Assembly (NCBI RefSeq): GCF_016862515.1
Contig: NZ_BONC01000060.1
Span: forward strand, 1-49,882
Length of the DNA: 49,882 nucleotides
Direction of reading: 5' to 3'
From: Asanoa iriomotensis
GTDB taxonomy: Bacteria > Actinomycetota > Actinomycetes > Mycobacteriales > Micromonosporaceae
Shown here: positions 8,257-25,843 of the stretch, one piece after another
Layout: every line of letters begins with the position of its first letter
How positions within the stretch are numbered: the first letter of the stretch is position 1
Program-made: the position numbers and the translations under genes
Notes under the pieces: model-generated
Databases searched by the model: none
Seen by the model: only the letters and a program-made list of their open reading frames with translations
Told to the model about the DNA's origin: nothing

Positions 8257-9744
8257 TCACCTCAACCAGCGGCGCGATTTGCGGCGGCGGGCCTTGGCCT
8301 GCGCGGCGGGCAGCTTGGCGACCAAAGAACGGCCATGCGCGGCCTGCTCGGCATAGAGGACCCCGTAGGTGAACGCGTTCGCCCGACGCGCATAGGCCCG
8401 CTCGCCCAGGTCCCGCAGCACCTGCCGGGTGATCACCGAGTCCTGGTGGTCGCCGAGCAGATCCTGCAGGCCTTTGAGACCGCGGACCAGCCGCTTCGCG
8501 CCCTTGTCGCCTGAGCGCTGGCGCACCTCGACCGCGTACCGGCCACGCTTGTAGGCCTTGCGCGCTTCGTGCAATGCCGGGTCGTCGTCACCGACGCCCC
8601 CGTCCGACTGGCGCTCGAGCGCGGTGTCGAGCAGACCGTCGGCACGCCGCACGGCCCGGTGGATGCGCTTGTTGACCCAGCGCGGGCCGACCTCGGTCGC
8701 CGGCGGCGCCTCGACCACATCGTCCAATGTCGACAGCAGCTCGACGTAACGCGGTGAGCTCAGCGCCCGGCGCAGGCGGGTCAACGCGGCGGACTCGTCG
8801 GCGGCGAAGTGCTCGGCGAGGTCCGCGGCGACCGGCCCGAGCACCAGGTCGTCCGGTTCCAGGCGCACCGCCCTGGCCAGTCGCGGCCCCATCACCTGTG
8901 CGTCCCGCACGCCGCCGAGCTGCTCGCCGAGCCACTTGAGCTCCGCCCGTACACCCTCGATCCGGTCCTGGTCCCAGAGAGCGCGGAACGAGCGGAACGT
9001 GCTGCGCAGCCGGCGCACCGCGACGCGCATGTCGTGCACGCCGTCGACGTCGCCCGCCCGCGCGGCCGGCTCGTGCGCGACCAGGCTGTCCCGGGTCGCG
9101 GCGGCGTAGGCGAACACCGGTGTCGCCGCCCCCGCGTCGATCGCCGTGAGGTCGCGGAGCCGGTCGTCCAGCACCCGGCGAATCTTCGCCGGTGAGCCGG
9201 GCACGGCGCCGGCCGCGCGCAACCGCCGCTCGACCTCGTCCAGCACCTCCTCGTCACCGTCGACCAGCTCGACCTCGATCTCGTGCCAGGCCGTCCGGCC
9301 GCCGTCGACCAGGTCGTGCCCGACCACCGCGTCGTCGGCGAGCGAGGCCAGCACCACACCGTCGGCGTCGCGCAGTTGCCACTCGCGGCGGCGGGTCTCG
9401 ACCCGGGCCACCGGCTCGACCGGCTCGCCGCGGGACGCGCCGCGGACCAACCGCATCAGGTCGGCCGGCGGCTGGCGGCCCCGGGTCAGCGCGCGCTGGT
9501 GCTCGGTGCGGGCACCACCGGCGGCGCCCACCTTGAGGTGCCAACCCTGGTCGGCTCCGCCGGTGCGCCGGCGCAGCGCCAGGGCACCGCGGGTCAGCCG
9601 CAACCGCGGGGTGTCGTAGTAGGTGGCGTCGAGCTTGATCACGACCGGGTCGCCGAGTGCGGCGATGCCGTCTCCCAGCAGGTCCGGCACCTGGAAGTCC
9701 GCGGGGCACTCGAACTTGCGCTCACGCTCCACCACCGTCCGCAT
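8257..9744 (-). CDS. CYTH and CHAD domain-containing protein
   Basis: About 495 residues. The N-terminal CYTH (triphosphate tunnel) domain starts with the ExExK signature ERERK (Glu6, Glu8, Lys10) and continues with ATYYDTPRLRLTRGALALRRR. The C-terminal CHAD domain has the conserved HDMRVAVRRLRSTFRSF helix and several basic helices that bind polyphosphate in characterised relatives. The protein likely binds or processes polyphosphate or another triphosphate. I chose the ATG at 9744; an ATG at 9762 is also in frame. The chosen start lies in the arm of a nested palindrome (9739-9780). It follows a STAS gene and is the last gene of the phosphate/surface block. Confidence 0.9.
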   Translation of the reverse strand: MRTVVERERKFECPADFQVPDLLGDGIAALGDPVVIKLDATYYDTPRLRLTRGALALRRRTGGADQGWHLKVGAAGGARTEHQRALTRGRQPPADLMRLVRGASRGEPVEPVARVETRRREWQLRDADGVVLASLADDAVVGHDLVDGGRTAWHEIEVELVDGDEEVLDEVERRLRAAGAVPGSPAKIRRVLDDRLRDLTAIDAGAATPVFAYAAATRDSLVAHEPAARAGDVDGVHDMRVAVRRLRSTFRSFRALWDQDRIEGVRAELKWLGEQLGGVRDAQVMGPRLARAVRLEPDDLVLGPVAADLAEHFAADESAALTRLRRALSSPRYVELLSTLDDVVEAPPATEVGPRWVNKRIHRAVRRADGLLDTALERQSDGGVGDDDPALHEARKAYKRGRYAVEVRQRSGDKGAKRLVRGLKGLQDLLGDHQDSVITRQVLRDLGERAYARRANAFTYGVLYAEQAAHGRSLVAKLPAAQAKARRRKSRRWLR

Positions 9745-9780
9745 ACCCCACTCGTACCCCATCGTGGGGCCGGTATGCGG
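9739..9780. repeat. Nested inverted repeat at the CYTH-CHAD start
   Basis: The outer arms are CCGCATACC (9739-9747) and GGTATGCGG (9772-9780). Inside lies CCCCA-tcg-TGGGG (9757-9769). In minus-strand RNA the outer helix would include the CYTH-CHAD start codon at 9744. The structure begins 1 bp after the stop of the upstream STAS gene. It could be a partial terminator or a translation-gating hairpin; there is no U-tract. Confidence 0.6.
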
Positions 9781-9781
9781 G

Positions 9782-10108
9782 TCAGACGCGGGCGGCGGTG
9801 CTGACCTGGGCGCGGGGCAGTCCGGCCACCAGGAGCTCCTCGGCCACCAGCGGTGCCGCGTCACGCACCGTCATCGATACGCCGCTGTCGCTGGCCACGT
9901 CGGCGCCGGCGACCACGGCGCCGATGCCTTCGGACTCGATGTGGCCCGCGCCGCGCAGGTCGACGACGACCCGGGTGGGGTCGAGGTGACGGATCGCACG
10001 GACCAAGGCCGATCGCAGCGCGGCTGCGTCGGTGGGATCGACGTCGCCGCGCACCTCGATGACGACGACGCCTAGCTTGTCGCGCTCCGTGACGAGCACG
10101 GTACCCAC
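9782..10108 (-). CDS. STAS domain protein (anti-sigma factor antagonist-like)
   Basis: A 108-residue single STAS domain. The GTG at 10108 is chosen because GGAGG (complement of 10116-10120) lies 7 nt upstream. The pattern VIEVRGDVDPTDAAALRSAL followed by RVVVDLRGAGHIESEGIG fits the anti-anti-sigma family, which binds anti-sigma kinases in partner switching. At the position of the phosphorylated Ser (second Ser of DSSG in SpoIIAA) this protein has Glu60 (IESEG), so it may mimic the phosphorylated state. It is followed by CYTH-CHAD with only 37 bp between, mostly filled by a palindrome. No partner kinase is nearby. Confidence 0.75.
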   Translation of the reverse strand: MGTVLVTERDKLGVVVIEVRGDVDPTDAAALRSALVRAIRHLDPTRVVVDLRGAGHIESEGIGAVVAGADVASDSGVSMTVRDAAPLVAEELLVAGLPRAQVSTAARV

Positions 10109-10216
10109 GGGGATACCTCCGGGTCGGCCCGCTGTTTCGGCGCCTTTACGGTATCCGTGCCGGCAAGCTCGCACCACCCACCGGTTCGCCGTCCGTTCAG
10201 CTACGAAAGCATGGCT

Positions 10217-10579
10217 CTAGCGTCCACCGCTTCGGGCAAGCCAACGTTCGGCCTCGGCGCGCCGGCGGGCCATGATCCGCAGCGCCACGCCGCCCCCGGT
10301 GACCGCCGCGCCGATCAGCGCGATCGTGCCCACCGCGGCGCCCGTCCGGGGCAGGTCTCCCCCGCCGCCCGGATCGTCGTCGTCGGGGGTCGGCCGCGTC
10401 GTGGTGGGGCTGGGGGTGGGTGTCGGACTCGACGGCCCGCCCGGTCCCGGCTCGATCCGCACGGTGAGGTCGACCGACACGGGTCCCGGTGACGGGTCCG
10501 CCGCGGCCGCGACCGCCGGCAGGATGACCGCGGCGGCGACCCCGATGCCGAGCGCGGCTGCCAGCGCCCGCCGGTTCAC
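10217..10579 (-). CDS. Small LPXTG-type cell-wall anchor protein
   Basis: A 120-residue protein with a signal peptide (residues 1-27), a short extracellular part, a Pro/Thr/Ser-rich and then DDDD/GGGG linker, the sorting signal LPRTG at 76-80, a hydrophobic helix (about 82-103) and the basic tail ARRR. A sortase would cleave after Thr and attach it to the wall. The GTG start overlaps the stop of the WxL-interacting protein gene (GTGA). Classical firmicute WxL loci also carry a small LPXTG protein next to a DUF916 protein, so this gene fits a WxL-type trio. Confidence 0.8.
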   Translation of the reverse strand: MNRRALAAALGIGVAAAVILPAVAAAADPSPGPVSVDLTVRIEPGPGGPSSPTPTPSPTTTRPTPDDDDPGGGGDLPRTGAAVGTIALIGAAVTGGGVALRIMARRRAEAERWLARSGGR

Positions 10580-11616
10580 GGCGCCGGGACCGGTGTGGGA
10601 CCGGCCTCGTCGAGGAACGTCGGCGCGGGCCGGCGACGCGCGCGGAGCAGGAGGATCCGGTACACGACCAGACCGAGGATCACGACCAGCAGAGCGAGGA
10701 TCAGCCAGGGTACGGCGGTCGTCCCGGCCGCACCCGACACCGACGGCAGCGTCTCCCGGTTGGTCGCGGGGTTGAAGTCGACGCGGGTGTTCAGCCGCCC
10801 GGCCGGGAAGACGGAGGAGAACTCCTGCTTCAGCCGCAACTCCGAGCCGGGCAGCAACTCGTCGACGGTGATCGCGTCACCACCGGCGAGGCGCATGCCC
10901 AGCGGGCCGTCGACGCCCACCCGCACGGTGCCGGAGAGCCGCACGTTGCCCTGGTTGGCGACGCGGTAGGTGACCGCCATCCTGCCGCCGGGCACCGGGA
11001 TGATCGGGTTCTCGTAGTCGACCTCGACCGCGGTGATCGCCGCGACCGGATGCAGCGGCCCGGCGACCCGCAGGTAGATCCGCGCGGCCACCCGGCGCTC
11101 GACGTCGACGCGCTGGCCCTTCTCGTTGACCTGCTGCTCGGTGATCGAGGCGATGATGCCGCCGATGTGGTCGCCCGGCGCCGCGTCGGCCGGCACCGTC
11201 ACCGTGAACGGCATGTCGGAACGCTTGCCCACGGGCAGTGTGGTCCGCGCCTTGGGCAGCTTGACCCACGCGCCGACACCGTCGGGCTTGGCGCTGCGCG
11301 GCAGCAGGGCGAAACCGCCGTCGGCGGCCGTGAACGCGTCGGTCGCGTACAGGTCGACGGAGATGGGCTTGTCGCCGAGGTTGCTCACCGAGATCCAGTC
11401 GGTGATGGCCTCTTTGGTGTTCAGCTCGTAGTCGAACTGCTTGCGCCCCTTGGGTCCGGTCGGGCTCGACGGCACGATCGTCCACGTAGGACTCTCGTCG
11501 GCGCGCGCCACGGCGGCCGCCGGTGCGACGCCGGTCGAGAGCAGCATCGCCGCCACAGCGACGAACGCCCCGGCACGCCAGGCGCGACGGGGAAGTCTGA
11601 CAGTTATGGGTTTCAT
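10576..11616 (-). CDS. WxL-interacting protein (DUF916-like), membrane anchored
   Basis: 346 residues: signal peptide (PRRAWRAGAFVAVAAMLLS), two extracellular beta-rich domains and a C-terminal membrane helix near 300-325 ending in RARRRP. The first domain (PSSPTGPKGRKQFDYEL, DWISVSNLGDKPISVDLYA, PADAAPGDHIGGIIASI) matches the peptidoglycan-binding domain of WxLIP/DUF916 proteins as I know the family. The second (AVTYRVANQGNVRLSGTVRV) matches its host-binding Ig-like part. GGAG lies 8 nt before the ATG. It is expected to hold a WxL protein at the cell surface, probably the one encoded just upstream. Confidence 0.8.
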   Translation of the reverse strand: MKPITVRLPRRAWRAGAFVAVAAMLLSTGVAPAAAVARADESPTWTIVPSSPTGPKGRKQFDYELNTKEAITDWISVSNLGDKPISVDLYATDAFTAADGGFALLPRSAKPDGVGAWVKLPKARTTLPVGKRSDMPFTVTVPADAAPGDHIGGIIASITEQQVNEKGQRVDVERRVAARIYLRVAGPLHPVAAITAVEVDYENPIIPVPGGRMAVTYRVANQGNVRLSGTVRVGVDGPLGMRLAGGDAITVDELLPGSELRLKQEFSSVFPAGRLNTRVDFNPATNRETLPSVSGAAGTTAVPWLILALLVVILGLVVYRILLLRARRRPAPTFLDEAGPTPVPAP

Positions 11617-11650
11617 GTGGCGGCTCCGGGTTCGACGTGGAACGTGGGGC

Positions 11651-11682
11651 GGCGGAGGTGCCGCGATCGCGGCACCTCCGCC
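11651..11682. terminator. Perfect 32-bp palindrome between the WxL and WxLIP genes
   Basis: Positions 11651-11682 are fully self-complementary around an ATCGAT-like centre; the left arm starts GGCGGAGGTGCC and the right arm ends GGCACCTCCGCC. It begins 17 bp past the stop of the WxL gene and lies 34 bp before the start of the WxLIP gene, in the same transcription direction. No U-tract follows. It probably acts as a partial terminator or an mRNA-end stabiliser, giving more of the first product. Confidence 0.6.
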
Positions 11683-11699
11683 AGACGACTCCAGCCGGA

Positions 11700-12896
11700 T
11701 CAGGCCAGCGTCAGGGTCAGGGTCGCCGCGTACTCACCCGGGGCGACGTTGTCAGGGATGGTGAGCTCCAGGCCGGCGTCGCAGGTGAACGTGCCGGCGC
11801 TGGCGCCCGAGGCGGCCGAGCAGAGGGTGCGGGCGTCGCCGAGGTCGGCACCGGCGCCAGCGGTCACCGCACCGGAACCCGAGACCTTGGCGGCCGACGG
11901 GGTCCAGGAGAGGTTGCTGTTGGCGATGGTGTTGGTGCCCTGGGCGAAGTCCTCCAGCTGGCCGGTCAGGGCCCAGCCGGTGTTGGTGCCGCGGAGGTCG
12001 ACCACGGTCGCCTTCGGCAGCGCGCCGTTGGCCTTGCCACCGACGACACCGCCGGTCAGCGAGGCGGTCGGCGCCGCGACGGCCAGGCTGAACGCGCCCG
12101 GGTCGATCGGAGCCAGGATCTCGACGTCCGCCGTCGGGCCGGCAGCCGTGCCCGGCGTGATGGTGAACGACGACGCGGTCGACACGGACGGCTTGAACGC
12201 GGTGGCGTCCGTCGGCGTGAAGGCCGCGGTGAACTGGTAGGTGCCCACCGGCAGCGCGGTGGTGGCGAAGGTGGCGACGCCGCCGGTCACCGGCGCCGAG
12301 CCGATCACCGTCGAGCCGCGCTTGAACTCCACCGTGCCGGCGGCGGTGTTGGGGGTCACGTTCGCGGTGAAGGTGGCCTCCTGGCCGCGCTCGATGCCGC
12401 CAGCCGGGGCGACGGTCAGCGCGGTGGTGGTGTCCTCCGCGACCGGGACCCGCCACTGGTCGCCGGTGACGACGATCGCGGTCTGGAACTCGTCGACGTG
12501 GCGACCCTCGGTCAGCGAGTAGCACTCGACGATGACCCACCACTCACCGGCGGCCGGCGCGGTGCCGCCCAGCGCGGTGGTGAAGGACCGGTTGGGTGCG
12601 ATCGTGACCGGCGCCTCGTCGTACCCACCGCCACCCAGCGGGACAGCCAGGTTGCTGTAGGGGCCGCCGGGACGACCGACCCGCAGACCCGCGTTCTCGC
12701 CGAAGCCGGCGGGGCACGCGGCGCTGGAGCCGCTCGCGAACATCGGGGTGTCGTTCACGCTGCCGCTCTGCTGCGACAACGTGACGCCGCCCAGCGAGGC
12801 CGCCTGCGCGGGGCTGGCGATACCCGCCAGCACGCCGGCCGACAGCGTCACCGCGCCCAGCAGCGCGGCCGCGCGAGCGAACACACGCTTGCTCAT
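11700..12896 (-). CDS. Secreted WxL-domain surface protein with shared N-terminal domain and Ig-like repeat
   Basis: 398 residues: signal peptide cut near ASPAQA-A; an N-terminal domain of about 115 residues (VTLSQQSGSVNDTPMF to ECYSLTEG) that recurs in two other genes here; one bacterial Ig-like domain (VAPAGGIERGQEATFTANV); and a C-terminal WxL-type domain. The last has VDLRGTNTGWALTGQLEDF, with Trp308-x-Leu310 as the first WxL motif, and ends EYAATLTLTLA, so the distal motif has lost its Trp. Such domains attach non-covalently to peptidoglycan. AGGAAG precedes the ATG at 12896. The 146-bp gap upstream separates it from pstB and should hold a promoter, which I could not place with confidence. 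Confidence 0.8.
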   Translation of the reverse strand: MSKRVFARAAALLGAVTLSAGVLAGIASPAQAASLGGVTLSQQSGSVNDTPMFASGSSAACPAGFGENAGLRVGRPGGPYSNLAVPLGGGGYDEAPVTIAPNRSFTTALGGTAPAAGEWWVIVECYSLTEGRHVDEFQTAIVVTGDQWRVPVAEDTTTALTVAPAGGIERGQEATFTANVTPNTAAGTVEFKRGSTVIGSAPVTGGVATFATTALPVGTYQFTAAFTPTDATAFKPSVSTASSFTITPGTAAGPTADVEILAPIDPGAFSLAVAAPTASLTGGVVGGKANGALPKATVVDLRGTNTGWALTGQLEDFAQGTNTIANSNLSWTPSAAKVSGSGAVTAGAGADLGDARTLCSAASGASAGTFTCDAGLELTIPDNVAPGEYAATLTLTLA

Positions 12897-13042
12897 GGAT
12901 CACTTCCTCTCAGAAGTTCAAGCCGGGTCCGGTGATCCGGCCCGATCAGGCTTTACAGCGGCTATGACCCGGTAATCAGGCCGATCTCTCCGCCGGACGT
13001 GCGATAGGGAAACAATTGGTGTTACGGCCTCGTCCGTTTCGC

Positions 13043-13852
13043 TCATCCGAACCGACCATTGACGTAGTCGTTGGTCCGTTCGTCGCGCGGCGCGTCGAAC
13101 ATGACGTCGGTCGGCCCGTGTTCGACAATCACGCCCGGCGTGCCGTGCGCGGCGAGGAAAAACGCGCACAGATCCGAGACGCGCGCCGCTTGTTGCATGT
13201 TGTGCGTGACGATGACGATGGTCACTTCGCCCGCCAACTCCGCGATGGTCTCCTCGATCCGCCGCGTCGACGTGGGGTCGAGCGCCGAGCAGGGTTCGTC
13301 CATCAGCAAAACCCGCGGGCGCACGGCCAACGAACGCGCGATGCAGAGCCGTTGCTGCTGGCCGCCGGAGAGCGCGCCGCCCGGCGAACGGAGCCGGTCG
13401 CGCACCTCTTTCCAGAGACCCGCACGGGTCAGCGTCTCCTCGACGATGCCGTCCCTGGCCGAACGGGAGGCGCGGGTGCCGGTCAGTTTGAGGCCCGCCA
13501 GAACGTTGTCGTAAATGGACATCGCCGGAAACGGGTTGGGCTTCTGGAAAACCATGCCGACCTGGCGCCGCACGTCGGTGACCCGGCGCTCGGCCGAGTA
13601 GAGGTCGCGGTCGTCGAGGAGCACCTCGCCGGCCAGCGACGCGGTCGGCACCAACTCGTGCATCCGGTTGAGAATGCGCAGGAACGTCGACTTGCCACAG
13701 CCCGACGGTCCGATGAGGGCGGTCACCTTGCCCGCGGGCATGGCCAGCGACACGCGGTCGAGCACCTTGTGGTCGCCGAACCAGGCCGAGATCGCCCGGG
13801 CGTCGAGGGTTCCGCCCAAGGGTGGGGCGATCTGCGTTTCGGTGAGCGTCAT
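13043..13852 (-). CDS. pstB: Phosphate ABC transporter ATP-binding protein PstB
   Basis: A 269-residue ATPase. Walker A is GPSGCGKSTFLRILNRM, followed by the PstB hallmark VGMVFQKPNPFP, the signature LSGGQQQRLCIARSLAV, Walker B VLLMDEPCSALDP and the switch His in IVIVTHNMQQAARVSD. It drives phosphate import with PstC and PstA. It is unusual in place: it lies about 9 kb downstream of pstCA, separated by genes for surface proteins and a dead sortase, though all are on the same strand. The ATG at 13852 follows the pseudosortase stop by 11 bp. Confidence 0.93.
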   Translation of the reverse strand: MTLTETQIAPPLGGTLDARAISAWFGDHKVLDRVSLAMPAGKVTALIGPSGCGKSTFLRILNRMHELVPTASLAGEVLLDDRDLYSAERRVTDVRRQVGMVFQKPNPFPAMSIYDNVLAGLKLTGTRASRSARDGIVEETLTRAGLWKEVRDRLRSPGGALSGGQQQRLCIARSLAVRPRVLLMDEPCSALDPTSTRRIEETIAELAGEVTIVIVTHNMQQAARVSDLCAFFLAAHGTPGVIVEHGPTDVMFDAPRDERTNDYVNGRFG

Positions 13853-13863
13853 GGTTCTTTCCT

Positions 13864-14811
13864 TCAGAGCAGGTTGGGCAACAGGCGCGCGGCCTGGTCG
13901 GCGGTCGCGAGACCGAGGAACGCGAGGACGGGCACGCCGATGATCCAGGCGTGCCAACCGCTCAACCGGGTACGCAGCCAGGTGACGGCGACCGCGCCGA
14001 TCAGCAACGCCTGGCCCCACAACATCGTCCAGACCCAGCCGATCGGGTCGGTGCCACCCAGCCGCTCCTCCGCGGGCAGGGCGGACTCGCCAAACCGGCG
14101 GGCCGGCGTCGCCTTGGCCGGCGAGGTCAGGTCCGCGTCGACGTAGAGCACGCCGGTGGGGTCGAACTGCCGCCCCTGCGCGGTGATCAGCGTCAGCCGG
14201 CCGGAGCCGCTCGCGGGAGGCGCGGGCTCCGGGTCGCCCGGGCGGCGCAGGCCTGTGACGCGGTACTCGGACTCGCCCTGGCCCGTCGTCGCCAGCACCT
14301 TGTCGCCGGGGATCAGCGTCTCGAGGTCGCGGAACGGGGCGCCGTACGCCGCCTGCCGTCCCATCAGGACACTGGTCCCCTGCTGTCCAGGCAGGACGGT
14401 GTCCCGCCGGTGACCGGGCCCGGCGCGCAGGACGTCGCCGCTGGTGCCCTCGACCACGACGGAGTCGAGCCCGATCGCCGGGATCCGCAGGATGGCGACC
14501 GCGCTGCCGGGCGCGACCAGTTGCTCCGGAAGCGGGTTGCCCTGGGAGTCGAACGACACCCGGTACTGCCCGACCGGCGCTACGCCGAGGACGAGCTCCG
14601 CCCGGAAGTCCGCGAACAGGGTCTGCTGGTCACGCTGGTACTGCAGCCAGGAGACCGCGGTCAGGTGCGCGACGAGGCCGATGGCCAGCACCGCCACGAG
14701 CGTCAGCGCGGTGCCGGTGATCTGCAGCGATCCGTTGGGCCGGCGCGGCGGCGCCGCCGGCCCGTCCGGGGCCGACGGCGCCGGAGGCGCCGGTAGCTCA
14801 GTCGTCGTCAT
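13864..14811 (-). CDS. Sortase-fold membrane protein lacking the catalytic triad (pseudosortase)
   Basis: 315 residues: Pro-rich cytoplasmic start, membrane helix (about 32-55), an extracellular sortase fold and two C-terminal membrane helices (about 255-310). The fold is recognisable from AILRIPAIGLDSVVVEG, LRAGPGHRRDT, AYGAPFRDLETLIPGDKV and RLTLITAQG. The catalytic residues are missing: the His of GHR is Arg152 (MGRQ), the Cys of TLxTC is Ala211 (TLITA) and the Arg position near the end is Leu222 (GVLYV). I checked these codons as CGG, GCG and CTC. It cannot be a normal transpeptidase. It overlaps the LALTG protein gene by 14 bp, so it may bind sorting-signal proteins without cutting them. 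Confidence 0.8.
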   Translation of the reverse strand: MTTTELPAPPAPSAPDGPAAPPRRPNGSLQITGTALTLVAVLAIGLVAHLTAVSWLQYQRDQQTLFADFRAELVLGVAPVGQYRVSFDSQGNPLPEQLVAPGSAVAILRIPAIGLDSVVVEGTSGDVLRAGPGHRRDTVLPGQQGTSVLMGRQAAYGAPFRDLETLIPGDKVLATTGQGESEYRVTGLRRPGDPEPAPPASGSGRLTLITAQGRQFDPTGVLYVDADLTSPAKATPARRFGESALPAEERLGGTDPIGWVWTMLWGQALLIGAVAVTWLRTRLSGWHAWIIGVPVLAFLGLATADQAARLLPNLL

Positions 14812-16429: not shown

Positions 16430-16454
16430 CGCTGGCAACTCCTTGACATTCGAG

Positions 16455-16485: not shown

Positions 16486-16498
16486 GGGTTGTGCTCGG

Positions 16499-17674: not shown

Positions 17675-17815
17675 GTGTGCTCCCTTTCTGCGGGGCATGT
17701 GACTCGTAGCCGCCCTGCTGACGGACGAGGCACGGTCATCGTCGCCAGCACCGGACCTGCCTCGATACCGCGTGCGGGCGAACGTTTCGCGCGGGTGCGT
17801 TCCGCCAACACGTAG

Positions 17816-17853
17816 GCCGGATGAACGCCGACCTACGGCCGCGTTCACTCCAC
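17816..17853. promoter_or_regulatory. Candidate PhoP-box-like elements
   Basis: On the minus strand GTTCATCCGGC (17816-17826) is one base from the Streptomyces PHO-box unit GTTCACCCGGC as I recall it. On the plus strand GTTCACTCCAC lies at 17843-17853. The two form the dyad TGAACGC-N12-GCGTTCA (17822-17847). They sit about 140 bp upstream of the secreted binding-protein gene. The clean 11-bp direct repeat of classical PHO boxes is not seen. Confidence 0.35.
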
Positions 17854-17862
17854 TGTGGTGGC

Positions 17863-20421
17863 TCATGAACGCCCCGCTCCGATCCGCTTGAGGATGGGGC
17901 CGACGATGCCGCCGGCCAGGCCGACGATCAGGATGATCAGCATCAGGTTGCCGAACATCCCGAGTGGACCGCCCGGGGTGATGTCGGCGGCCCGCACGAC
18001 CGGTGCGGTGGGCGAGGGTGCCACCGGCGCGATCGACGGCAGCGCGCCGGCGGTCGGCACGGCGGCCGGCGGCGGGGGTGGCGTCGCCGGAGGCGAGGTG
18101 GGCGGCGCGCCGCGCTCGAGGAGGTCCGCCGCCCGCATGGTCTGCGCGCGCATCGCCTGCGGCAGGGGCACGTAGCCCTCCGGCAGCTGGCCCCTCGCGA
18201 GGCCCGGCTGCTGGCCGTCGCCGGCGATCTGCCGGAGCAGGGTGGCGTAGTCCTTGCGCGCGTCCGGCGCCTCCAGGAGGTTGCCGACCGCGTAGTTGAT
18301 CATTGCCAGCGGGTACGCCGTCTTGCTCTTCGTCCAGGCGGTCGCCGCGTCGATCACCTTCACGCCGGACACGTCGGAGTTCTTCGCGAGAGCGGCGGCG
18401 GCGAGTAGGCCGTCGTCGTCCGGCGTCCGGCACTCCACGGTGCCGACGAGCACCTTGTTCTCCCGCTTCGGCTTGCACAGCTGCGCCGAGTAGAGCCCGT
18501 AGCGCGCCGCCGACGCCGAGTCCGTGATGGACATCGCCATCCTGGCGCCCGGCGGCTTCCGCGGGATCGGATCGTAGTTCGGCGGCAGCAGGTTGAAGTT
18601 GAACGTCGGCTGGCGGCCCTTGGGGTCGGCCCGCAGCGTCTGCAGCGCGGCCTCGGAAAGGCTGCCCATGTAGGGCCGCATGTTCTGCGTGCAGTGCGGG
18701 TAGATCACGTTGTCCCAGATCGCCTCGGTGCACTTGCCGTCGGCCTTGGGGAACGTGTCCAGCGCGGCGTTCGCCACGTTGCGGTAGTTCGGGTTGACCG
18801 TCATGCCGTGCTCGTCGGGCGTGCCCGCGAGAAACGCCTTGGCCTCGGCGTCGGACAGCAGCCACTGCCAGACCTGCCGCGAACCGGCGGAGTTGCCGAG
18901 CGAGACCACTAGGCCGTCGAGGGTGGCCGACCGCGTGCGGTCCCACCATTCGAAGATCGGGTTGATGGTCAGGAACTCCGGGTCCTCGCGGATGTTGTCG
19001 AAGTTCGCCGTCGCGAGCTTCTCCGTGTCCTTCGCGTCCCGGCGGTAGCTCTGGGTCAGCAGCTTGGCGATCAACCGCGGCGTGAGCTTGATGTCGTTCA
19101 ACGCGGTGCCCGTGCGCGCCAGCACGTCGGGCGGCACCTGGCCGGAAGCCTGGCTGGGATCGACGATGTTGGCGTCGATGTTGATCGCGATCTCCATGCC
19201 GCTCAACGTCGCCGGCGCGTGGACGACCGGTGGTTGCCCGGGACCCGGGCGCACCGGGTCGGCGGTGAACACCATCCCGGGCGCGCCCACGCCGGTCAGG
19301 AGCACCTGCCGGGACGCCTCGGCGTCGCCGATCGCGGAGTAGCCGATCACCGGGCCCTGGTTGGCGCAGACGCCGGGCTGCCAGGCGGTGACCGCCTCGG
19401 CCACCATCTCGGTGCCCGCGGTGCGCCGCTCGGCCTGGTTGAGCGGGCAGAGACCGGTCACCGGGCGGAACTCCAGCGGTACGACGATGCGGTTGACCCA
19501 GTTGGCCGGCAGGAACGGGCTGCCGTGCACCGCCTCCAGCGCCGGATCCACGGGCGTTCCGTCGTACGGGTTCAGGTGCCCGCGCGGCACGATCACGAGC
19601 GAGCACTTCGGGCCGTCCACCAACTGGCCCGCCCGCTCGACCTTCGGCGCGCCGCAACCGAGGTCCGGCGCCCGGCCCGCGTCCTGCAGCTCGAAGATCG
19701 CCCGCCCGGTGCCGTCGGCGGAGGTGAGCGCCCAGGGGATCTCGTTGGTCGAGGCTTCCGCGAACGACTCGCGAAGCACGTCGACGTCGGTCTCCTGGAT
19801 GAACTGGCCCTCGACCGCGGGGTTCTCGATCATCCTGAACGGCCTGACCGCGCTGCCGTCCCGGAACCGGACGCCCTGGACGGTGCGGAACGGGATCATC
19901 TTGGCGTCCGGCTGCAGGGTGCCCGGCTTGTCGGGCTCGTTTGCCGGCGGCAGCACCTCGGCCCCGTCGCGCAGCGGGTAGTCCGCGAGCCCGGCGGTGA
20001 GCGAGCGCGAATTCGCCGCCTGCGACGTCGTTCCGGAGCGGCCGGTGAACGGCGAACCGATGTTCATGCCGAACTGGCAGGTCTCCCGGAAAGCCAGCGC
20101 GTCGGCAGGATCGCCCCAGCACTGCATGATCTGCAGGTAGTCGATGCCCAGCGCGCGGGTGCGCGGGCTGGGTACGCCGCCGGTCCAGGTGACCTCGATC
20201 GCCTGGTTGGTCAGGTCGCGGGTCTGCGAGACGGTGACCGCGAGGCTGGTGAAGTCTTCTTCGCCGTCGAAGCGACCGTGCACGGTCACGGCGGAGCCGC
20301 CGCTGCCTCCGGCCGAGATGGTGTCCTGCGCGGCCAGGGTCGGCGCCGGCCCGGGCAGCACCACCAGCGCGATCCCGGCGGCCAGGAGCAGTGCCAGGCC
20401 GCCCGCGCGCAGCCGCCTCAC
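17863..20421 (-). CDS. Large membrane-anchored PstS-like extracellular protein
   Basis: 852 residues. A signal peptide (GLALLLAAGIALVVLPG) is followed by a beta-rich N-terminal part (VTVHGRFDGEEDFTSLAVTV). A long central region has binding-protein features: IVPRGHLNPYDGT, IGYSAIGDAEASRQ, TPRLIAKLLTQSY, TINPIFEWWD and VTGLCPLNQ. A Pro/Ala/Thr-rich linker leads to one C-terminal helix (about 822-842) and KRIGAGRS. It is much longer than a normal PstS and carries several Cys residues. The GTG start overlaps the pstS stop (GTGA), so it is co-translated with the transporter. It may be an outward extension or accessory receptor of the Pst system. Exact function unknown. Confidence 0.7.
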   Translation of the reverse strand: MRRLRAGGLALLLAAGIALVVLPGPAPTLAAQDTISAGGSGGSAVTVHGRFDGEEDFTSLAVTVSQTRDLTNQAIEVTWTGGVPSPRTRALGIDYLQIMQCWGDPADALAFRETCQFGMNIGSPFTGRSGTTSQAANSRSLTAGLADYPLRDGAEVLPPANEPDKPGTLQPDAKMIPFRTVQGVRFRDGSAVRPFRMIENPAVEGQFIQETDVDVLRESFAEASTNEIPWALTSADGTGRAIFELQDAGRAPDLGCGAPKVERAGQLVDGPKCSLVIVPRGHLNPYDGTPVDPALEAVHGSPFLPANWVNRIVVPLEFRPVTGLCPLNQAERRTAGTEMVAEAVTAWQPGVCANQGPVIGYSAIGDAEASRQVLLTGVGAPGMVFTADPVRPGPGQPPVVHAPATLSGMEIAINIDANIVDPSQASGQVPPDVLARTGTALNDIKLTPRLIAKLLTQSYRRDAKDTEKLATANFDNIREDPEFLTINPIFEWWDRTRSATLDGLVVSLGNSAGSRQVWQWLLSDAEAKAFLAGTPDEHGMTVNPNYRNVANAALDTFPKADGKCTEAIWDNVIYPHCTQNMRPYMGSLSEAALQTLRADPKGRQPTFNFNLLPPNYDPIPRKPPGARMAMSITDSASAARYGLYSAQLCKPKRENKVLVGTVECRTPDDDGLLAAAALAKNSDVSGVKVIDAATAWTKSKTAYPLAMINYAVGNLLEAPDARKDYATLLRQIAGDGQQPGLARGQLPEGYVPLPQAMRAQTMRAADLLERGAPPTSPPATPPPPPAAVPTAGALPSIAPVAPSPTAPVVRAADITPGGPLGMFGNLMLIILIVGLAGGIVGPILKRIGAGRS

Positions 20422-22013
20422 GGCCGGTGCTCCCGGTCCGAGCGGGACCGCCAGCGCTGCGCGAGCAGCGGCGGGATCAGCACCAGACCGAGCGCCAACA
20501 GGCCGGCCAGCAGCATCGTGGTCTGCTGCAGGCCCCAGCCCGGCCGCCCGGCCAGGTTGACCGGCTCGGCACCGACTAGCTCGGAGTCACCGCCGGCCAA
20601 CCCTTCCTGTGGACCCGCGCTGGCCGAGGCTGACGGCCCGGCCGTGGGCCCGCCCGCACCCGCGTTGTTGGTGTTGCCGCCGGCGGCCTGTCCCGAGGAG
20701 GTGCACTGTGCGGCGGCGAGCACCGGCGTCTTGGCCTGCGCGCCGGCCGTACCGTCGCCGCTCTGCTTGGATCCGCGCTTGTCGCACGGCGACGGCTGTT
20801 TCGCTGTCCTGGCCAGCGTGTTGGACCCGTCCCGCGAGAACGTGGGGTTGTTGCACTGTGCCAGCGGCGCGGCGTGCTTGACCGCGCCGGGGATGCGCGC
20901 GACCTGTGCGAACCCGGCCTGCACCAGGTTCACCGGCAGCGGCGAGTAGCCGAGCACGTCGGCCTGCTGCTGCCCTTCGCAGAGGAAGTAGTTGGCGAAC
21001 TCGCCGAGCGTGAAGCCCTTGTCCTCGTTGATGCCGCGACCGGTCTCGGTCGGAATGATCATGTAGGAGTACGACGACAGCGGGTACACCCGCGGGTCGG
21101 TGAAGCGGTAGACGTCGTCGAGGATCTGCGTCAGGTAGTCCTGCGAGCGCGTGTTGGTGTTGATCCGCGCCTTCGTCAACGCCACGGCCACGTTCGACGC
21201 GGTCGGCTCGACGTAGTAGTCGGCGGCGTTGCGCAGCTTCACCACCGGGAACCGGGCGCCGATCGCGTACGAGTACTCGACGTAGGTGATCGCGCCTTCC
21301 GCGTTGGCCTGCGCGACGTAGCCCGTGACACCGGTCGAGCCCTGCTGACCGACGAAGCCGTCTGACGAGCGGTACGGGTACGCCGAGGTGATCCCGCACG
21401 GCGCCGGCTTGCCGAACCTGCGGCAGTAGGCGTTCCAGATGCTCGGGTACTGCTTGCTCATCCAGAGCGTGAACTGCGCGCTCGTGCCCGAGCCGTCCTG
21501 CCGCACCACCGGCACGATCCGCCGGTTCGGCAGTGCCAGCCCCGGGTTGTCGGCCTTGATCCGCGGGTCGTTCCACTGCTTGATGACTCCGGTGAAGATG
21601 CCCGCCACCACGTCGCCGGAGAGCCGCAGGTTGGTCACCTGCCGGCCGCCGATCTTCAGGTTGTACATGAACGCGGTGCCGCCGGCCACGATCGGCATGT
21701 ACGCGAACTTCCGCGGTGGCAGGGTGTCCACACCGCCGAACGCGTCCCGCAGGCCGTACGGGATCTCGGAGACGCCGAAGTCCACAGTGGCGTTCCGGAA
21801 CTGGTTGCGGCCGTCGGTGGAGCCGGTCGGGTTGTAGTTGACGTAGAGCTGGCGCTGCAGGACGTTCCGCCGCCAGTTGTCGATGGCGTTGGAGCTCCAC
21901 GTCGAACCCGCCCCGTTGATCGGTACGCGCCGGGGTGCGGCGGCAGCGGGTGCGGGCACCAGGGCCGCGATGGCGACCGCGGTGGCGGCGGCGATCAGGG
22001 CTCGGACTTTCAT
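20418..22013 (-). CDS. pstS: Phosphate ABC transporter substrate-binding protein PstS, C-terminally membrane anchored
   Basis: 531 residues. The signal peptide has no lipobox (PAPAAAAP). The binding-protein core is typical of PstS: INGAGSTWSSNAIDNW, DFGVSEIPYG, NLRLSGDVVAGIFTGVIKQW, VVRQDGSGTSAQFTLWM, GAITYVEYSYA and PLSSYSYMIIP. After the core comes a linker of about 110 residues rich in Ala, Gly and Ser, then a membrane helix (about 495-515) and a basic tail. So the usual lipid anchor is replaced by a C-terminal helix. It overlaps pstA (ATGA) and the 852-residue protein gene (GTGA). It captures phosphate for PstCAB. Confidence 0.88.
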   Translation of the reverse strand: MKVRALIAAATAVAIAALVPAPAAAAPRRVPINGAGSTWSSNAIDNWRRNVLQRQLYVNYNPTGSTDGRNQFRNATVDFGVSEIPYGLRDAFGGVDTLPPRKFAYMPIVAGGTAFMYNLKIGGRQVTNLRLSGDVVAGIFTGVIKQWNDPRIKADNPGLALPNRRIVPVVRQDGSGTSAQFTLWMSKQYPSIWNAYCRRFGKPAPCGITSAYPYRSSDGFVGQQGSTGVTGYVAQANAEGAITYVEYSYAIGARFPVVKLRNAADYYVEPTASNVAVALTKARINTNTRSQDYLTQILDDVYRFTDPRVYPLSSYSYMIIPTETGRGINEDKGFTLGEFANYFLCEGQQQADVLGYSPLPVNLVQAGFAQVARIPGAVKHAAPLAQCNNPTFSRDGSNTLARTAKQPSPCDKRGSKQSGDGTAGAQAKTPVLAAAQCTSSGQAAGGNTNNAGAGGPTAGPSASASAGPQEGLAGGDSELVGAEPVNLAGRPGWGLQQTTMLLAGLLALGLVLIPPLLAQRWRSRSDREHRP

Positions 22014-23305
22014 GTGCTGACCTCGGTGTCGTCGCTGGTGTCACGGATCGGCTCCGGCGGCGCCGAAGCCAGTCGGGCTCGTTCGCGGCGGGAGAAGCGC
22101 ACCGCGTCGCGGTAGGACCGGCCGGCCCGGCGGCGGCGCTGGCCCCGGCCGAGCTGCCCGGCCGGCTTGCCGCCGATCACCCGGGCGATCGCGAACAGGA
22201 TCAGCACGAGGAACATCAGCACGGCGGCCGCGCCGAAGCCGCGCGCGATCATCCCCGCGTCGGGCCGGGTGACGGAGGTGAAGACGTACAGCGGAAGGGA
22301 GATCTGCGGTTCGTGCAGCGGGTTGGCGTTCGTGTACGCGGTGACGCCCGAGGTGAGCAGCACGGGCGAGGTCTCGCCGATGCCGCGCGCCGTACCCAGG
22401 ATGATCGCGGTCATCAGGCCGGACCGCGCGGTCGGCAGCACCACGTGCCAGACCGTCCGCCACTGCGAACCGCCCAGCGCCAGCGACGCCTCCCGCAACG
22501 TGCCCGGCACCAGTCGGATGACCACGTCCGCGGCCCGGATCACGATCGGCAGCATCATCACGCTGATCGCCAGCGACGCGGCGAAGCCGGACTTGCCGAC
22601 CGCGAGCCAGTGCAGGCTCTCCGGCAGCCGCCCGCTCTCCCGCCACTGGTTCAGCAGCAGGATCACGGAGGAGTAGATGAACAGGCCGGCCACCACCGAC
22701 GGCAGCGCGGTCATCGCCTCGACGATCGTGCGGACGAACCGGCTGAACCGGCCCGGCAGCTCGGCGAGGAAGACCGCGGCGACGACACCCATCGGCACGG
22801 TGAAGGCGAGCGCGATCCCGATCTGCTCGAGCGTGCCGATCACCGCGTGCCGGATGCCGCCCACCGACAGGGGTTGCAGCGGACCGGCGTCGCGCATGTC
22901 CTGCGTGTAGAAGTTGCGGTGGCCCAGCGCGTCCAGGCCGCGGTAGAAGGTGAACACCACCACGACCACGAGCGCGATCAGCATGAGTACGGCCAGCCCG
23001 TGCACGAGGACGGCGGCGATCCGGTCGCGCACGGTCGGTCCGCGCTCGTCCAGGCCGGTCAGCAGTCCGTAGATCGCGACGAACAGCACGAACGTCACCA
23101 CGACGAAGCCCAGAGCACCGTCGAACGGGGTGAGCCGGGTGAACAGCAGCGCGGTCAGCGACAGGGCGGCCCAGGCGGCGCCGAGCGCGACGAACACGTC
23201 GGTGCGGCGCATGGACCCGGTCGTCCGGCGCACCTCGACGCCCGGGTCCGCGGCGCGCTCGGGCAGCGTCGTCGTCGTGGTCGGTGCTTCCATGGTTGTC
23301 GTCAT
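22010..23305 (-). CDS. pstA: Phosphate ABC transporter permease PstA
   Basis: About 431 residues from the ATG at 23305, longer than the usual 280-300 because of an N-terminal extension with extra hydrophobic segments (residues 35-140) and a basic C-terminal tail. The transport core shows NFYTQDMRDAGPLQPLSVGG, AVIGTLEQIGIAL, AMTALPSVVAGLFIY and the coupling loop EASLALGGSQWRTVWHVVLP, which fits PstA. It starts 2 bp after the pstC stop and overlaps pstS, in an operon. It forms the membrane channel with PstC. Confidence 0.9.
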   Translation of the reverse strand: MTTTMEAPTTTTTLPERAADPGVEVRRTTGSMRRTDVFVALGAAWAALSLTALLFTRLTPFDGALGFVVVTFVLFVAIYGLLTGLDERGPTVRDRIAAVLVHGLAVLMLIALVVVVVFTFYRGLDALGHRNFYTQDMRDAGPLQPLSVGGIRHAVIGTLEQIGIALAFTVPMGVVAAVFLAELPGRFSRFVRTIVEAMTALPSVVAGLFIYSSVILLLNQWRESGRLPESLHWLAVGKSGFAASLAISVMMLPIVIRAADVVIRLVPGTLREASLALGGSQWRTVWHVVLPTARSGLMTAIILGTARGIGETSPVLLTSGVTAYTNANPLHEPQISLPLYVFTSVTRPDAGMIARGFGAAAVLMFLVLILFAIARVIGGKPAGQLGRGQRRRRAGRSYRDAVRFSRRERARLASAPPEPIRDTSDDTEVST

Positions 23306-23307
23306 CG

Positions 23308-24363
23308 CTATGCCTCGCTCGACGCGCCCGACCGGCTGCGGCTGATGATCACGCCGGCGAGCATGTTGACCACCAACGTCATGCCGAACAGCACGAGGCC
23401 GGCACCCATCAGCGCGGCCACGCCGAGCTCGGTGGACTCCTGGTAGCGCGATGCGATCAACGACGAGATCGACCCGCCGCCGTTCTGCAGGATGTGCGGC
23501 TGTATGACGAAGCCGATCGAGATGATCAGGACGACGCCGATCGTCTCGCCGAGTGCCCGGCCCAGGCCGAGCATGGTGGCGCCGATCATGCCACCCCGGC
23601 CGAACGGGAAGACGACCGAGCGGATCATGCCCCACTTCGTGGCGCCCAGCGCGTACGCGCCCTCCCGCTCGCCGGGCGGCGCCTGCGCGAACACCTCGCG
23701 CATCACCGACGCGATGATCGGGGTGACCATCATCGCCACGACGATCCCGGCGATGAACGTCGAGGACGTCAGCCGGCTGGCGCTGGCCTCCGGGTCGCGC
23801 GGCTGGTACTCGTCGACCGCGAACAGCGGGATCCAGCCGAAGTACGTGGTGAGCCAGCGCGGCAGGCCCTCACCCTGGTTGCCGACGACCAGCAGGTGCG
23901 GCTGCAGGAGGAAGAAGCCCCAGATGCCGTAGACCACGCTCGGCACGGCGGCCATGAGGTCGACCAGGTTCACCAGGACCGGTGCGATCCGGCGCGGCGC
24001 GTACTCGGAGATGTAGAGCGCGGCCCCGATCGCCAGCGGCAGCGCGATCGTGATCGCCACGAGCGCGATCAGGATCGTGCCGACCAGCACGCCGGCCACG
24101 CCGAAGTGGTTGCCCTCGGTGTCCCAGTCCTGTGTGGTCAGAAAGCCCCAGCCGGCGCGGCGCACCGCGGGCCAGGCCTGGACGCTCAGGAAGATGCCGA
24201 CCAGCAGCATGATGACCAGCACCATCGAGCCGGCCACCCGAGCCACGGTGCGGAACACGTGGTCGCTGGCCAGCAGCCTGGTGCGCACCGCGCGCGGTCG
24301 GTCCGCCGGCCCGTCCGGAGTGGACGGTGTGACGGTCGCGCGCGGTTCGTCGACGAGCACCAT
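23308..24363 (-). CDS. pstC: Phosphate ABC transporter permease PstC
   Basis: About 351 residues from the ATG at 24363, which overlaps the upstream stop (TGATG). Six or more hydrophobic segments are present. The core includes GFLTTQDWDTEGNHFGVAGV, IALPLAIGAALYISEYAP, DLMAAVPSVVYGIWG, the EAA loop REGAYALGATKWGMIRSVV and GRALGETIGV, all typical of PstC. It pairs with PstA to pass phosphate across the membrane, powered by PstB, whose gene lies about 9 kb downstream on the same strand. Confidence 0.92.
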   Translation of the reverse strand: MVLVDEPRATVTPSTPDGPADRPRAVRTRLLASDHVFRTVARVAGSMVLVIMLLVGIFLSVQAWPAVRRAGWGFLTTQDWDTEGNHFGVAGVLVGTILIALVAITIALPLAIGAALYISEYAPRRIAPVLVNLVDLMAAVPSVVYGIWGFFLLQPHLLVVGNQGEGLPRWLTTYFGWIPLFAVDEYQPRDPEASASRLTSSTFIAGIVVAMMVTPIIASVMREVFAQAPPGEREGAYALGATKWGMIRSVVFPFGRGGMIGATMLGLGRALGETIGVVLIISIGFVIQPHILQNGGGSISSLIASRYQESTELGVAALMGAGLVLFGMTLVVNMLAGVIISRSRSGASSEA

Positions 24364-24824
24364 CAGCCGGCCAGCCCGCCACGTAGTCGCTCGCCCCGGC
24401 GCCAGCCGACCGACGGCTCGACCCGCGCGCGCCCGCGCCGAGCACTGCGCGTGCCGGCCACGATGTCGGCCGTCGGCAGCGCCTCCAGGAACTTGGTCAG
24501 GTTGTAGGCGCATTCCCGGGTACGCAGGTACGAGCGGCTGGAGGCCGCCACGGGCGCGCCGTCGAGCTCGATCCGCCAGGTCCACTGCCCGGTGCGCTCG
24601 ACGGTGGTCTCGACCGGCACGACCCGGTGCGCGTTCGCCTTGATGTGCTCCACCGAACTCCGGCATTCGGCATAGGCCTCGTGATACGTCGTGCCGCGGC
24701 CCAACGGTCGGTTGTTCGGCGAAACAAGCATCCACAGGATCCCTTCGACCGGCGCCCGATCGGCGTCGGTCGCATTGCCCTCCGGCATAGGCAGGGCCAG
24801 AAAGACGAATCGGGAACGCTGCAC
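24363..24824 (-). CDS. Small protein with two DUF1508/YegP-like repeats
   Basis: 153 residues from a GTG at 24824 with GGAGG 8 nt upstream. Two similar segments can be seen: WMLVSPNNRPLGRGTTYHEA followed by YAECRSSVEHIKANA, and WTWRIELDGAPVAASSRSYL followed by RTRECAYNLTKFLEA. Each has the pattern W-x-hydrophobic, small turn, aromatic, Cys, helix that I associate with the DUF1508 (YegP) fold. The C-terminus is Arg-rich. No signal peptide or membrane segment is seen. It is the first gene of the pst operon and is translationally coupled to pstC by TGATG, so it may regulate or assist the transporter. Function unknown. Confidence 0.6.
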   Translation of the reverse strand: MQRSRFVFLALPMPEGNATDADRAPVEGILWMLVSPNNRPLGRGTTYHEAYAECRSSVEHIKANAHRVVPVETTVERTGQWTWRIELDGAPVAASSRSYLRTRECAYNLTKFLEALPTADIVAGTRSARRGRARVEPSVGWRRGERLRGGLAG

Positions 24825-24970
24825 TGTCGGTCCCTCCTGTGTTCCGCGTGCGTCGTCGCACGCCAGCCGCGTCTCCCCGCTCGGCGAGCTGGTGGCTCGC
24901 GACGCGACCGGCATCAGATTCCGCAGGGACCATGACTCCGCGCGACGACTCGTGCGCACGCCAGACATGC

Positions 24971-25036
24971 GGGAGATGAACAGCACGTATTGACGTATCC
25001 ACCGTTCAGCTATCGACCTGCGCCAGTGGGATGAAC
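24971..25036. promoter_or_regulatory. Candidate control region of the pst operon with GTTCA cores
   Basis: This lies in the 222-bp gap upstream of the pst operon. GTTCATCTCCC (24971-24981, minus), GTTCAGCTATC (25004-25014, plus) and GTTCATCCCAC (25026-25036, minus) share the GTTCA core of actinobacterial PHO-box units. A direct repeat ACGTAT-tg-ACGTAT lies between the first two. Control by phosphate limitation is expected from the genes, but the boxes are irregular. Confidence 0.3.
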
Positions 25037-25046
25037 GTGCCCGGAT

Positions 25047-25766
25047 TCAGCGGGATTTGCCGGGGCTACGGCGGGTCAACAGGAAAACCAGTCCGAATAC
25101 GCAAAGAACACCGACGAGTCCGGCGATCCACCACGCGTTGCCGAAGGAGGCTTTGCCGGTGCGGTTGTTCGCGGCGAGCCGGGCGTCGAGCTCGGCCTGG
25201 TCGGCGCCGCTGACGTCGGGCGGGCCGGAGCTCGCGCCGGCCGACGGCGGCTGCCCGGAGGCGCTCGGCGAGGCCCCGCCGGCGGACGGGTCCGCGGGGG
25301 CGCCGGCGGGGCGGCCGGTGCGCCAGCGGGCGCCGGAGACCGTGATCGGGGTGACGAACCGCTCCGGGTGCATCCCCTGGGCCACGCTGTAGCACTCGAC
25401 CACGACCTGCCACTCGCCGTCGGTCGGCCGCACGTTGCCCAGCGCCATGGCGAACGACCGGTTCGGCTTGGCGGTCACGGCCTTCGTGTCGTAGCCGCCG
25501 TCCCGCAGCGGCGTGGCCACGTTGGCGTACGGGCCGCCGACCGGGCCGATCCGGACCGCCGCGTCGGAGCCGTACCCGGCCGGGCAGGGCGCGCTCGCGG
25601 CGGCGGAGGCGAAGATCGGGTTCGTGTCGACCGAGCCGGAGGTCTGCGACAGCCGCACCTGGCCGAGCGGCGCCGCCAAGGCCGGCGCGGGCAGGGCGAG
25701 GGCGGTGACGGCAAGTGTGCCGGCGGCCGCCACGGCGGCCGCGATGCGGCGAAGGTGTCGGTTCAC
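25047..25766 (-). CDS. Secreted protein with the shared N-terminal domain and C-terminal membrane anchor
   Basis: 239 residues from a GTG at 25766. A signal peptide (AAAGTLAVTALALPAPALA) is followed by the same domain of about 115 residues found in the genes at 11700 and 14798: VRLSQTSGSVDTNPIF, PCPAGYG, GGPYANVATPL, KPNRSFAMALG and VVVECYSV. Both conserved Cys residues are kept. A Pro/Ser/Gly linker leads to one membrane helix (about 208-230) and a basic end. It has no Ig repeats, WxL or sorting motif. It lies just upstream of the pst operon on the same strand. The domain is not one I can name. Confidence 0.7.
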   Translation of the reverse strand: MNRHLRRIAAAVAAAGTLAVTALALPAPALAAPLGQVRLSQTSGSVDTNPIFASAAASAPCPAGYGSDAAVRIGPVGGPYANVATPLRDGGYDTKAVTAKPNRSFAMALGNVRPTDGEWQVVVECYSVAQGMHPERFVTPITVSGARWRTGRPAGAPADPSAGGASPSASGQPPSAGASSGPPDVSGADQAELDARLAANNRTGKASFGNAWWIAGLVGVLCVFGLVFLLTRRSPGKSR

Positions 25767-25843
25767 ACCGCCGGTCTAGTCAGCGCCGACGACCGCCGGC
25801 GATCGGGCCGGCGCGCGCCAGACGGCGCGGAGGTGAACAGGAC

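Follow-up and report, generated by a model that had tools for sequence, protein, structure and literature searches.

Gene content and conservation of the locus

Why should the genes of a Pst-type phosphate pump lie in one block with genes for surface proteins and for a sortase devoid of its catalytic residues? This question is raised by a stretch of 49,882 nt from Asanoa iriomotensis (contig NZ_BONC01000060.1; the whole stretch is called the window here), in which a block of 15 genes, all on the minus strand, extends from position 25766 down to 8257. We propose that the locus encodes an accessory, wall-adapted phosphate importer of the Pst family, which is held together by a pseudosortase scaffold, and we give this proposal an even chance. 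The identity of the pump and of its receptor is based on sequence and fold; the hand-over of phosphate and the scaffold role are inferred. The genes are given below in their order in the block.

25047..25766, minus strand: A, an exported protein of 239 amino acids (aa) with an immunoglobulin (Ig)-like N-terminal domain and a C-terminal transmembrane helix (AlphaFold2 predicted local distance difference test, pLDDT, 80.9; beta-rich domain 31-150)
24363..24824, minus strand: B, a cytoplasmic protein of 153 aa made of two similar halves, without Pfam match
23308..24363, minus strand: PstC permease (BPD_transp_1, 5.1e-11)
22010..23305, minus strand: PstA permease (BPD_transp_1, 8.1e-13)
20418..22013, minus strand: S1 (531 aa), PstS-type receptor with a C-terminal transmembrane helix and without lipobox (PBP_like_2, 1.9e-32)
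17863..20421, minus strand: S2 (852 aa), predicted PstS fold with an extra N-terminal domain and a C-terminal transmembrane helix (model and Foldseek)
16499..17674, minus strand: S3 (391 aa), secreted, PstS-like, without membrane anchor (profile against phosphate-binding proteins of the PDB)
14798..16429, minus strand: LALTG surface protein (543 aa) with the N-terminal domain, Big_3_5 Ig repeats, and LALTG followed by a transmembrane helix
13864..14811, minus strand: pseudosortase (315 aa), class E-like, with Arg at the His152 position, Ala at the Cys211 position and C-terminal LLPN (Sortase, 4.8e-17)
13043..13852, minus strand: PstB ATPase (ABC_tran, 2.8e-33)
11700..12896, minus strand: WxL protein (398 aa) with the N-terminal domain, an Ig repeat and a WxL domain (WxL, 25.6 bits, cut-off 25)
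10576..11616, minus strand: WxLIP-type protein (346 aa; DUF916/peptidoglycan-binding domain, PGBD) with a C-terminal transmembrane helix (WxLIP_PGBD, 5.7e-10, 39.7 bits)
10217..10579, minus strand: small accessory LPRTG protein (120 aa; Gram_pos_anchor weak, under cut-off)

The run ends with a STAS_2 protein and a CYTH+CHAD protein (Pfam), in this order. S2, S3, B and the Ig-like N-terminal domain gave no Pfam match over threshold. A preliminary description of the region had named pstC, pstA, pstS, pstB, WxL, a DUF916-type partner, LPRTG, LALTG, STAS and CYTH-CHAD, all of which were recovered by Pfam, NCBIfam or sequence. It had also spoken of sixteen genes on the same strand with many 4-bp overlaps. 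The single strand is correct, the number of genes is not, and such overlaps are present but at only three of the 14 junctions (PstA/S1, S1/S2 and WxLIP/LPRTG); one further junction overlaps by 1 bp and another by 14 bp. The largest gaps, of 222 bp between A and B, 188 bp between S2 and S3, 146 bp between PstB and WxL and 108 bp between LPRTG and STAS, suggest that the block consists of several transcription units.

The conservation of the locus was analyzed with S2 as a marker. Named genomes yielded 299 confirmed relatives, the best 80 of which were kept as loci, and rarer layouts may thus be missed. For the layout counts, the 59 loci with at least 5.2 kb before and at least 7.5 kb after S2 were used, and the remaining 21 were dropped due to short flanks. 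PstC, PstB, the sortase homologue and all of S1, S2 and S3 are contained in each of the 59 loci. PstA was assigned by open reading frame in 56 and recovered in the remaining three by tblastn. Among the recognised genes, the pseudosortase is listed next to PstB in 54 loci. The other genes are optional: WxL was found in 38 of the 59 loci, B in 37, the WxLIP-type gene in 35, LALTG-type genes in 28, A-type genes in 13, and relatives of the LPRTG protein, on either strand, in eight. Most frequent are the bare core, with 17 loci, and the layout B plus core plus LALTG, WxL and WxLIP, with 16. Thus the suspected link between Pst and surface genes extends beyond this genome, and the two sets were not found scattered across the relatives. 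The surface genes are frequent companions of Pst, but dispensable ones.

The 80 loci all carry actinobacterial titles and belong to many families, with genera such as Micromonospora, Phytohabitans, Actinoplanes, Streptomyces, Kitasatospora, Amycolatopsis, Jiangella, Planotetraspora and Homoserinibacter. Among the named loci, those of other Asanoa species are nearest (S2 identity of 73% to A. hainanensis and 70% to A. ishikariensis; the PstC of A. hainanensis is 94% identical). With the own genome included, S2 is present in 16 of 121 genomes of the order, corresponding to 11 of 50 genera, and in five of 246 sampled genomes of the phylum; of the 14 other family members listed, none has it. Accordingly, the system is widespread yet patchy, and it is patchy within the family too. 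Further loci outside the named set show the same genes on contigs of sufficient length, several of these loci being truncated. One contig with S2, S3, WxL and WxLIP-type genes (L067) comes from a record titled as a Bifidobacterium breve metagenome-assembled genome and is probably mis-binned.

A separate lineage of PstC

PstC, PstA and PstB of the Pst families are found in the block together with a PstS-type receptor, as judged by Pfam, NCBIfam and profile comparison with the PDB. The genome holds two further PstC genes, so three in all, and in all of the 12 genomes tested a PstC, or more than one, is present in addition to the copy in the operon. Two further pst operons, referred to as L131 and L132, are carried by the A. 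iriomotensis genome. In a tree of 34 operon rows (picked from about 90) and 16 other PstC sequences, the operon PstC proteins form one side of a branch with a support of 94/81, which was recovered in 96% of 200 bootstrap trees, and none of 500 shuffles of the labels gave a value as low as that of the observed split. The operon PstC is a lineage apart from canonical PstC. An outlier, the PstC from an Amycolatopsis jejuensis genome (L153), joins beside the operon group by a long branch and may represent another Pst type.

These data bear on the simplest explanation, an ordinary duplicated pst operon that happens to lie beside unrelated surface genes. Pst duplicates are common, and the three PstC genes of this genome would be in line with it, but it is contradicted by the presence of the core in every testable locus and by the separate PstC lineage, and we consider it highly improbable.

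Three receptor-like proteins

A profile of S1 built from 27 members matches PstS structures in the PDB at 8.4e-46, and the score with the NCBIfam PstS model TIGR00975 (200.3) is just under the cut-off of 205. The ligand positions are given in the numbering of E. coli PstS, together with the roles of its residues; Asp56 and Asp137 are also named in PDB titles. In an alignment of 93 rows, position Thr10 is occupied by Thr in 76 and Ser in 14 rows, Ser38 by Ser in 90, Arg135 by Arg in 79, His in 10 and Tyr in two, Asp137 by Asp in 78, Glu in 11 and Asn in two, and Thr141 by Thr in 50, Ser in 38 and Ala in three (here, as in the pseudosortase, first PHO-spacing and leave-one-out motif counts, the loci L027 and L066, which are one locus, are counted twice). 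Of 75 S1 proteins, 70 contain the motif RxDGSG[TS]. Judged by its sequence, S1 is a PstS and looks like a phosphate receptor, and phosphate is the likely substrate of the system.

In Gram-positive bacteria, the PstS receptor is a lipoprotein. A C-terminal hydrophobic helix was detected in 74 of 75 S1 proteins and a lipobox-like motif in none, while the canonical PstS of the same genome (L131) does carry a lipobox. Lipobox-like motifs were also found in only one of 80 S2 and one of 80 S3 proteins, and all 80 S3 proteins are devoid of a C-terminal helix.

S2 and S3 had been suspected to be two extra PstS-like exported proteins, and this was borne out by fold for one and by profile for the other. 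An AlphaFold2 model of S2, calculated from 32 sequences (pLDDT 83.7, predicted template modelling score, pTM, 0.82), has PstS structures as best Foldseek matches (8ods, E-value 1.9e-10, TM-score 0.74 by target length), and a profile search with the C-terminal part agrees with PstS at 6e-09. The model thus shows a predicted PstS fold for S2, which does not contain the RxDGSGT anion-binding motif. For S3 the profile matches to phosphate-binding proteins of the PDB are weak (4.9e-06 to 0.002).

The pseudosortase and the surface proteins

The sortase homologue matches not only the Pfam Sortase family but also solved sortases in the PDB, and reaches 68.9 bits with the NCBIfam model for class E sortases, which is under the cut-off of 160. 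In an alignment of 86 rows (the window and 85 loci, one locus being present twice), the position of His152 is occupied by Arg in 85 rows and by Lys in one, and the position of Cys211 by Ala in 77, Ser in seven and Gly in two. The two replacements are also evident in alignments to 5uus and 5go6. These are the positions of the catalytic His and Cys. That the sortase is dead had been noticed before; both the Cys and the His are gone. Two class E sortases of the genome score over the cut-off, and the one which was read (L133) keeps His and Cys, in GHR and TTC. Since the sortase domain and the C-terminal LLPN, which accompanies two hydrophobic C-terminal helices, are retained in nearly all rows, the pseudosortase is maintained rather than decaying.

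One N-terminal domain recurs in protein A, in the LALTG protein and in the WxL protein; it comprises about 120 residues and includes two cysteines that are invariant. In the 8.57-Mb genome this domain was found at three places, all in this locus, and four weaker matches lie outside the domain. An iterated profile revealed 142 copies in 55 of 99 stretches searched and in 39 of the 59 full loci. The structural model is beta-rich with a pLDDT mostly above 90; Foldseek gave weak matches to Ig, fibronectin and CopC-like structures, with a WxLIP-WxL structure at rank 42, and no confident match in the PDB (best E-value 0.037). The WxL protein of the window contains one W-x-L motif and not two, and the locus harbors one WxL and one WxLIP gene, the latter matched in Pfam by its PGBD only. 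In L057 (14840-17320), L094 (15469-18417) and similar Streptomyces-type loci, WxLIP-type and Ig-like N-terminal domains are located in a single open frame, which may represent a WxLIP/Ig-domain fusion.

With so many surface genes, the locus could be considered primarily as an adhesion or wall-assembly structure, in which the Pst genes feed phosphate or are merely co-transcribed. The WxL and WxLIP proteins of Firmicutes are described as surface complexes in PMC10599100, and Ig-like repeats as well as LPXTG-type signals are present here. However, it is the surface module that varies between loci, whereas the transporter, S1 to S3 and the pseudosortase do not, and we regard this explanation as quite improbable.

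A shared upstream motif

The PHO box of Streptomyces, according to the passages on it in PMC4415409 and PMC7866108, consists of at least two direct repeats of 11 nt, in which GTTCACC is most conserved. Pairs of GTTCAYC at a distance of 11 nt, matching at 11 or more of 14 positions, were found in 25 of 72 non-redundant upstream stretches; 60 shuffles gave on average 4.4 and at most 10 such stretches, and other spacings gave 5 to 15. Random stretches of the loci were dropped as a background in favor of these spacing and shuffle controls, because the composition of intergenic regions differs. A de novo Gibbs search led to a motif of 24 bp with the consensus GTTCACCTGCTGCATGTCCGGCGT; many loci contributed chance sites to it, and hence a leave-one-out test was used. 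The following sites in the window were considered.

24958..24981, minus strand: upstream motif before B-PstC, GTTCATCTCCCGCATGTCTGGCGT (score 30.5, the best in the window)
12990..13013, minus strand: upstream motif before WxL (score 15.8, second-best in the window)
25815..25838, minus strand: weak copy before A (score 9.3, seventh in the window; relatives have stronger copies in this location)

Chance sites in the window reach 14.5. In 11 relatives scanned, a site was detected before the transporter unit in all 11 and, at corresponding positions, before WxL in 10 and before A or the unit of the first gene in eight, several of the latter two kinds being too weak to stand alone. At the level of the 8.57-Mb genome, a stricter pattern has one full match, which is located before B-PstC. 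A looser pattern, which was drafted in the knowledge of both window sites and so as to admit them, has two matches without mismatch, both in this locus, and two more with two mismatches, compared to one for the reversed control. Among the canonical pstS promoters of the genome, that of L131 contains a clear PHO box (19 of 22 positions). PhoP is the likely reader of the 24-bp motif, and the presence of this motif upstream of both the transporter and the WxL units fits to their co-regulation.

A dedicated upstream motif would also suit a complex for sensing, in which the Pst-like proteins mainly report external phosphate or the state of the wall to a kinase (PhoR or another), transport being of secondary importance. 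In other bacteria, canonical Pst has a part in signalling (PMC7866108), and a pseudoenzyme together with a receptor fold lacking its motif would be suitable for a signalling or scaffold role. On the other hand, the pump ATPase PstB is retained in 59 of 59 loci, and no kinase, PhoU or response regulator is present among the recognised genes of the loci. We therefore consider sensing as the main function to be improbable.

Proposed mode of action

Following the proposal of a wall-adapted importer, PstC, PstA and PstB would form the pump, an assignment based on family and tree, from which its activity is deduced. S1 would be the docking receptor delivering phosphate to PstCA, with its C-terminal helix and long linker replacing the N-terminal lipid. 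The larger, tethered S2 and S3, which is free or fused to Ig domains, could extend the set of receptors outwards, and the Ig-like, LALTG and WxL/WxLIP proteins may place or stack the receptors in the wall. The dead sortase could act as a scaffold in the membrane that binds, but does not cut, their sorting signals or Ig parts. The transporter and surface units would be switched on together via the shared PHO-box-like motif, probably at phosphate shortage. More tentatively, and with less than an even chance in our estimation, the locus could represent an undescribed class of importer of Actinomycetota, in which a wall-spanning relay of three receptors with PstS fold, placed at differing distances from the membrane, leads phosphate to a dedicated PstCAB lineage, with the pseudosortase as a membrane hub for receptors and surface proteins and a single dedicated operator.

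Several observations speak against the proposed importer. In 17 of the 59 loci no gene was recognised as WxL, WxLIP, Ig or LALTG; in the two bare-core loci which were read (L078 and L081), S3 ends in Ig- or fibronectin-like repeats, and the surface part may be fused to S3 there. Of 80 S2 proteins, only 62 were assigned the C-terminal helix. Of 82 upstream stretches, only 25 (16 of them training loci scored by leave-one-out and nine not used for training) have the 24-bp motif as the best site of their locus, namely 25 of the 48 stretches with gene B and none of the 34 without. Further, the fit to a PHO box is partial, since the second unit of the motif agrees at seven of 11 positions, chance yields 55 PHO-box scores of 16-17 in the window, and the canonical pstS promoter in L132 has no PHO box. 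Finally, the motif RxDGSG[TS] was found in none of 80 S2 and none of 80 S3 proteins, and position Asp56 of S1 is occupied by Glu in 57 and by Asp in only 34 of the 93 rows. Given this Glu, affinity or specificity of S1 may differ.

The last two points lead to the possibility that the same architecture serves another cargo, i.e. another oxyanion or a phosphorylated compound such as a phosphate ester, wall-derived glycerol phosphate or a phosphonate, or that it is an arsenate-discriminating variant, with S2 and S3 holding a larger ligand. In line with this, S3 has invariant arginines of its own (R89, R131 and R321), and a further PstC is already available in all 12 genomes tested. But S1 by far best matches phosphate-binding PstS proteins and mostly keeps their motif, and we judge another cargo to be unlikely.

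Neighbouring genes

The preliminary description had proposed that CYTH-CHAD acts on stored polyphosphate. However, CYTH-CHAD is found beside the core in only three and STAS in two of the 59 loci. Both are local neighbours and not part of a conserved unit, and the polyphosphate step is therefore unsupported. We rejected CYTH-CHAD, STAS and a GGDEF-EAL protein as parts of the system, since they are rarely beside the core. The latter is encoded at 6475-8229 on the minus strand, 27 bp beyond CYTH-CHAD, and is not conserved with the core.

Just upstream of the block, at 25884-27299 on the minus strand, lies a gene for a PHP/DUF3604 protein with a His-rich stretch and, as read by eye, a twin-arginine-like signal, which could be an exported phosphoesterase. 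Its relatives adjoin the core only in two Asanoa loci among the 59. The halves of protein B, of the type W-x-L-NNR...SSRxY, are reminiscent of YegP/DUF1508; Pfam gave no match. Gene B was also considered as a regulator acting on the motif and rejected, since kinship explains the association of B and motif as well and B has no DNA-binding match. There was no Rfam match within 8000-26500, a scan for sigma-70 promoters gave no sites, and terminators were at the level of shuffled sequences.

Relation to known systems and significance

The locus resembles the PstSCAB importer in that a receptor of the PstS type is encoded in the same block as PstC, PstA and PstB. It differs by three PstS-like proteins which are tethered by a C-terminal helix or secreted instead of being lipidated, by the pseudosortase and the surface proteins, by the separate PstC lineage, and by having no phoU among the recognised genes. 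With class E sortases it shares the sortase fold (Pfam, NCBIfam and PDB), but here the catalytic His and Cys are missing in 86 of 86 rows, and the protein has two C-terminal helices and the LLPN end. In the Isd haem relay of Staphylococcus, wall-placed receptors hand the nutrient to an ABC importer, and the sortases are active. The likeness to Isd is one of idea only: ligand and folds differ, and the relay here is a proposal.

The nearest published case that we found is the znu zinc system of Corynebacterium diphtheriae (PMC12445094), in whose abstract an ABC importer is combined with ligand-binding proteins of membrane and wall, one of them with a sortase signal; unlike the present locus, it is for zinc, comprises different families, and a pseudosortase is not mentioned in that abstract. 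The WxL/WxLIP clusters of Firmicutes, as described in PMC10599100, share with the locus WxL and the peptidoglycan-binding domain of WxLIP with its C-terminal transmembrane helix, but in our case there is no second WxL, no host-binding domain was matched, and the genes are linked to Pst. Among the literature matches listed, no paper deals with the combination of Pst, pseudosortase and surface proteins, and the word sortase is absent from the main text of the 2021 review on phosphate transport in Streptomyces (PMC7866108) and also of PMC4415409. The locus is possibly a variant of the Pst importer not yet described, and it may include an envelope relay of a new kind.

The analysis gives names to gene families which are unknown to the databases, namely S2, S3, B and the Ig-like N-terminal domain. 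In these antibiotic makers, the formation of antibiotics is governed by the supply of phosphate, according to PMC6988585 and PMC6283541. If the relay is true, the widely conserved sortase pseudoenzyme would have a testable role, and the locus would show how thick-walled bacteria bring a scarce anion through their envelope.

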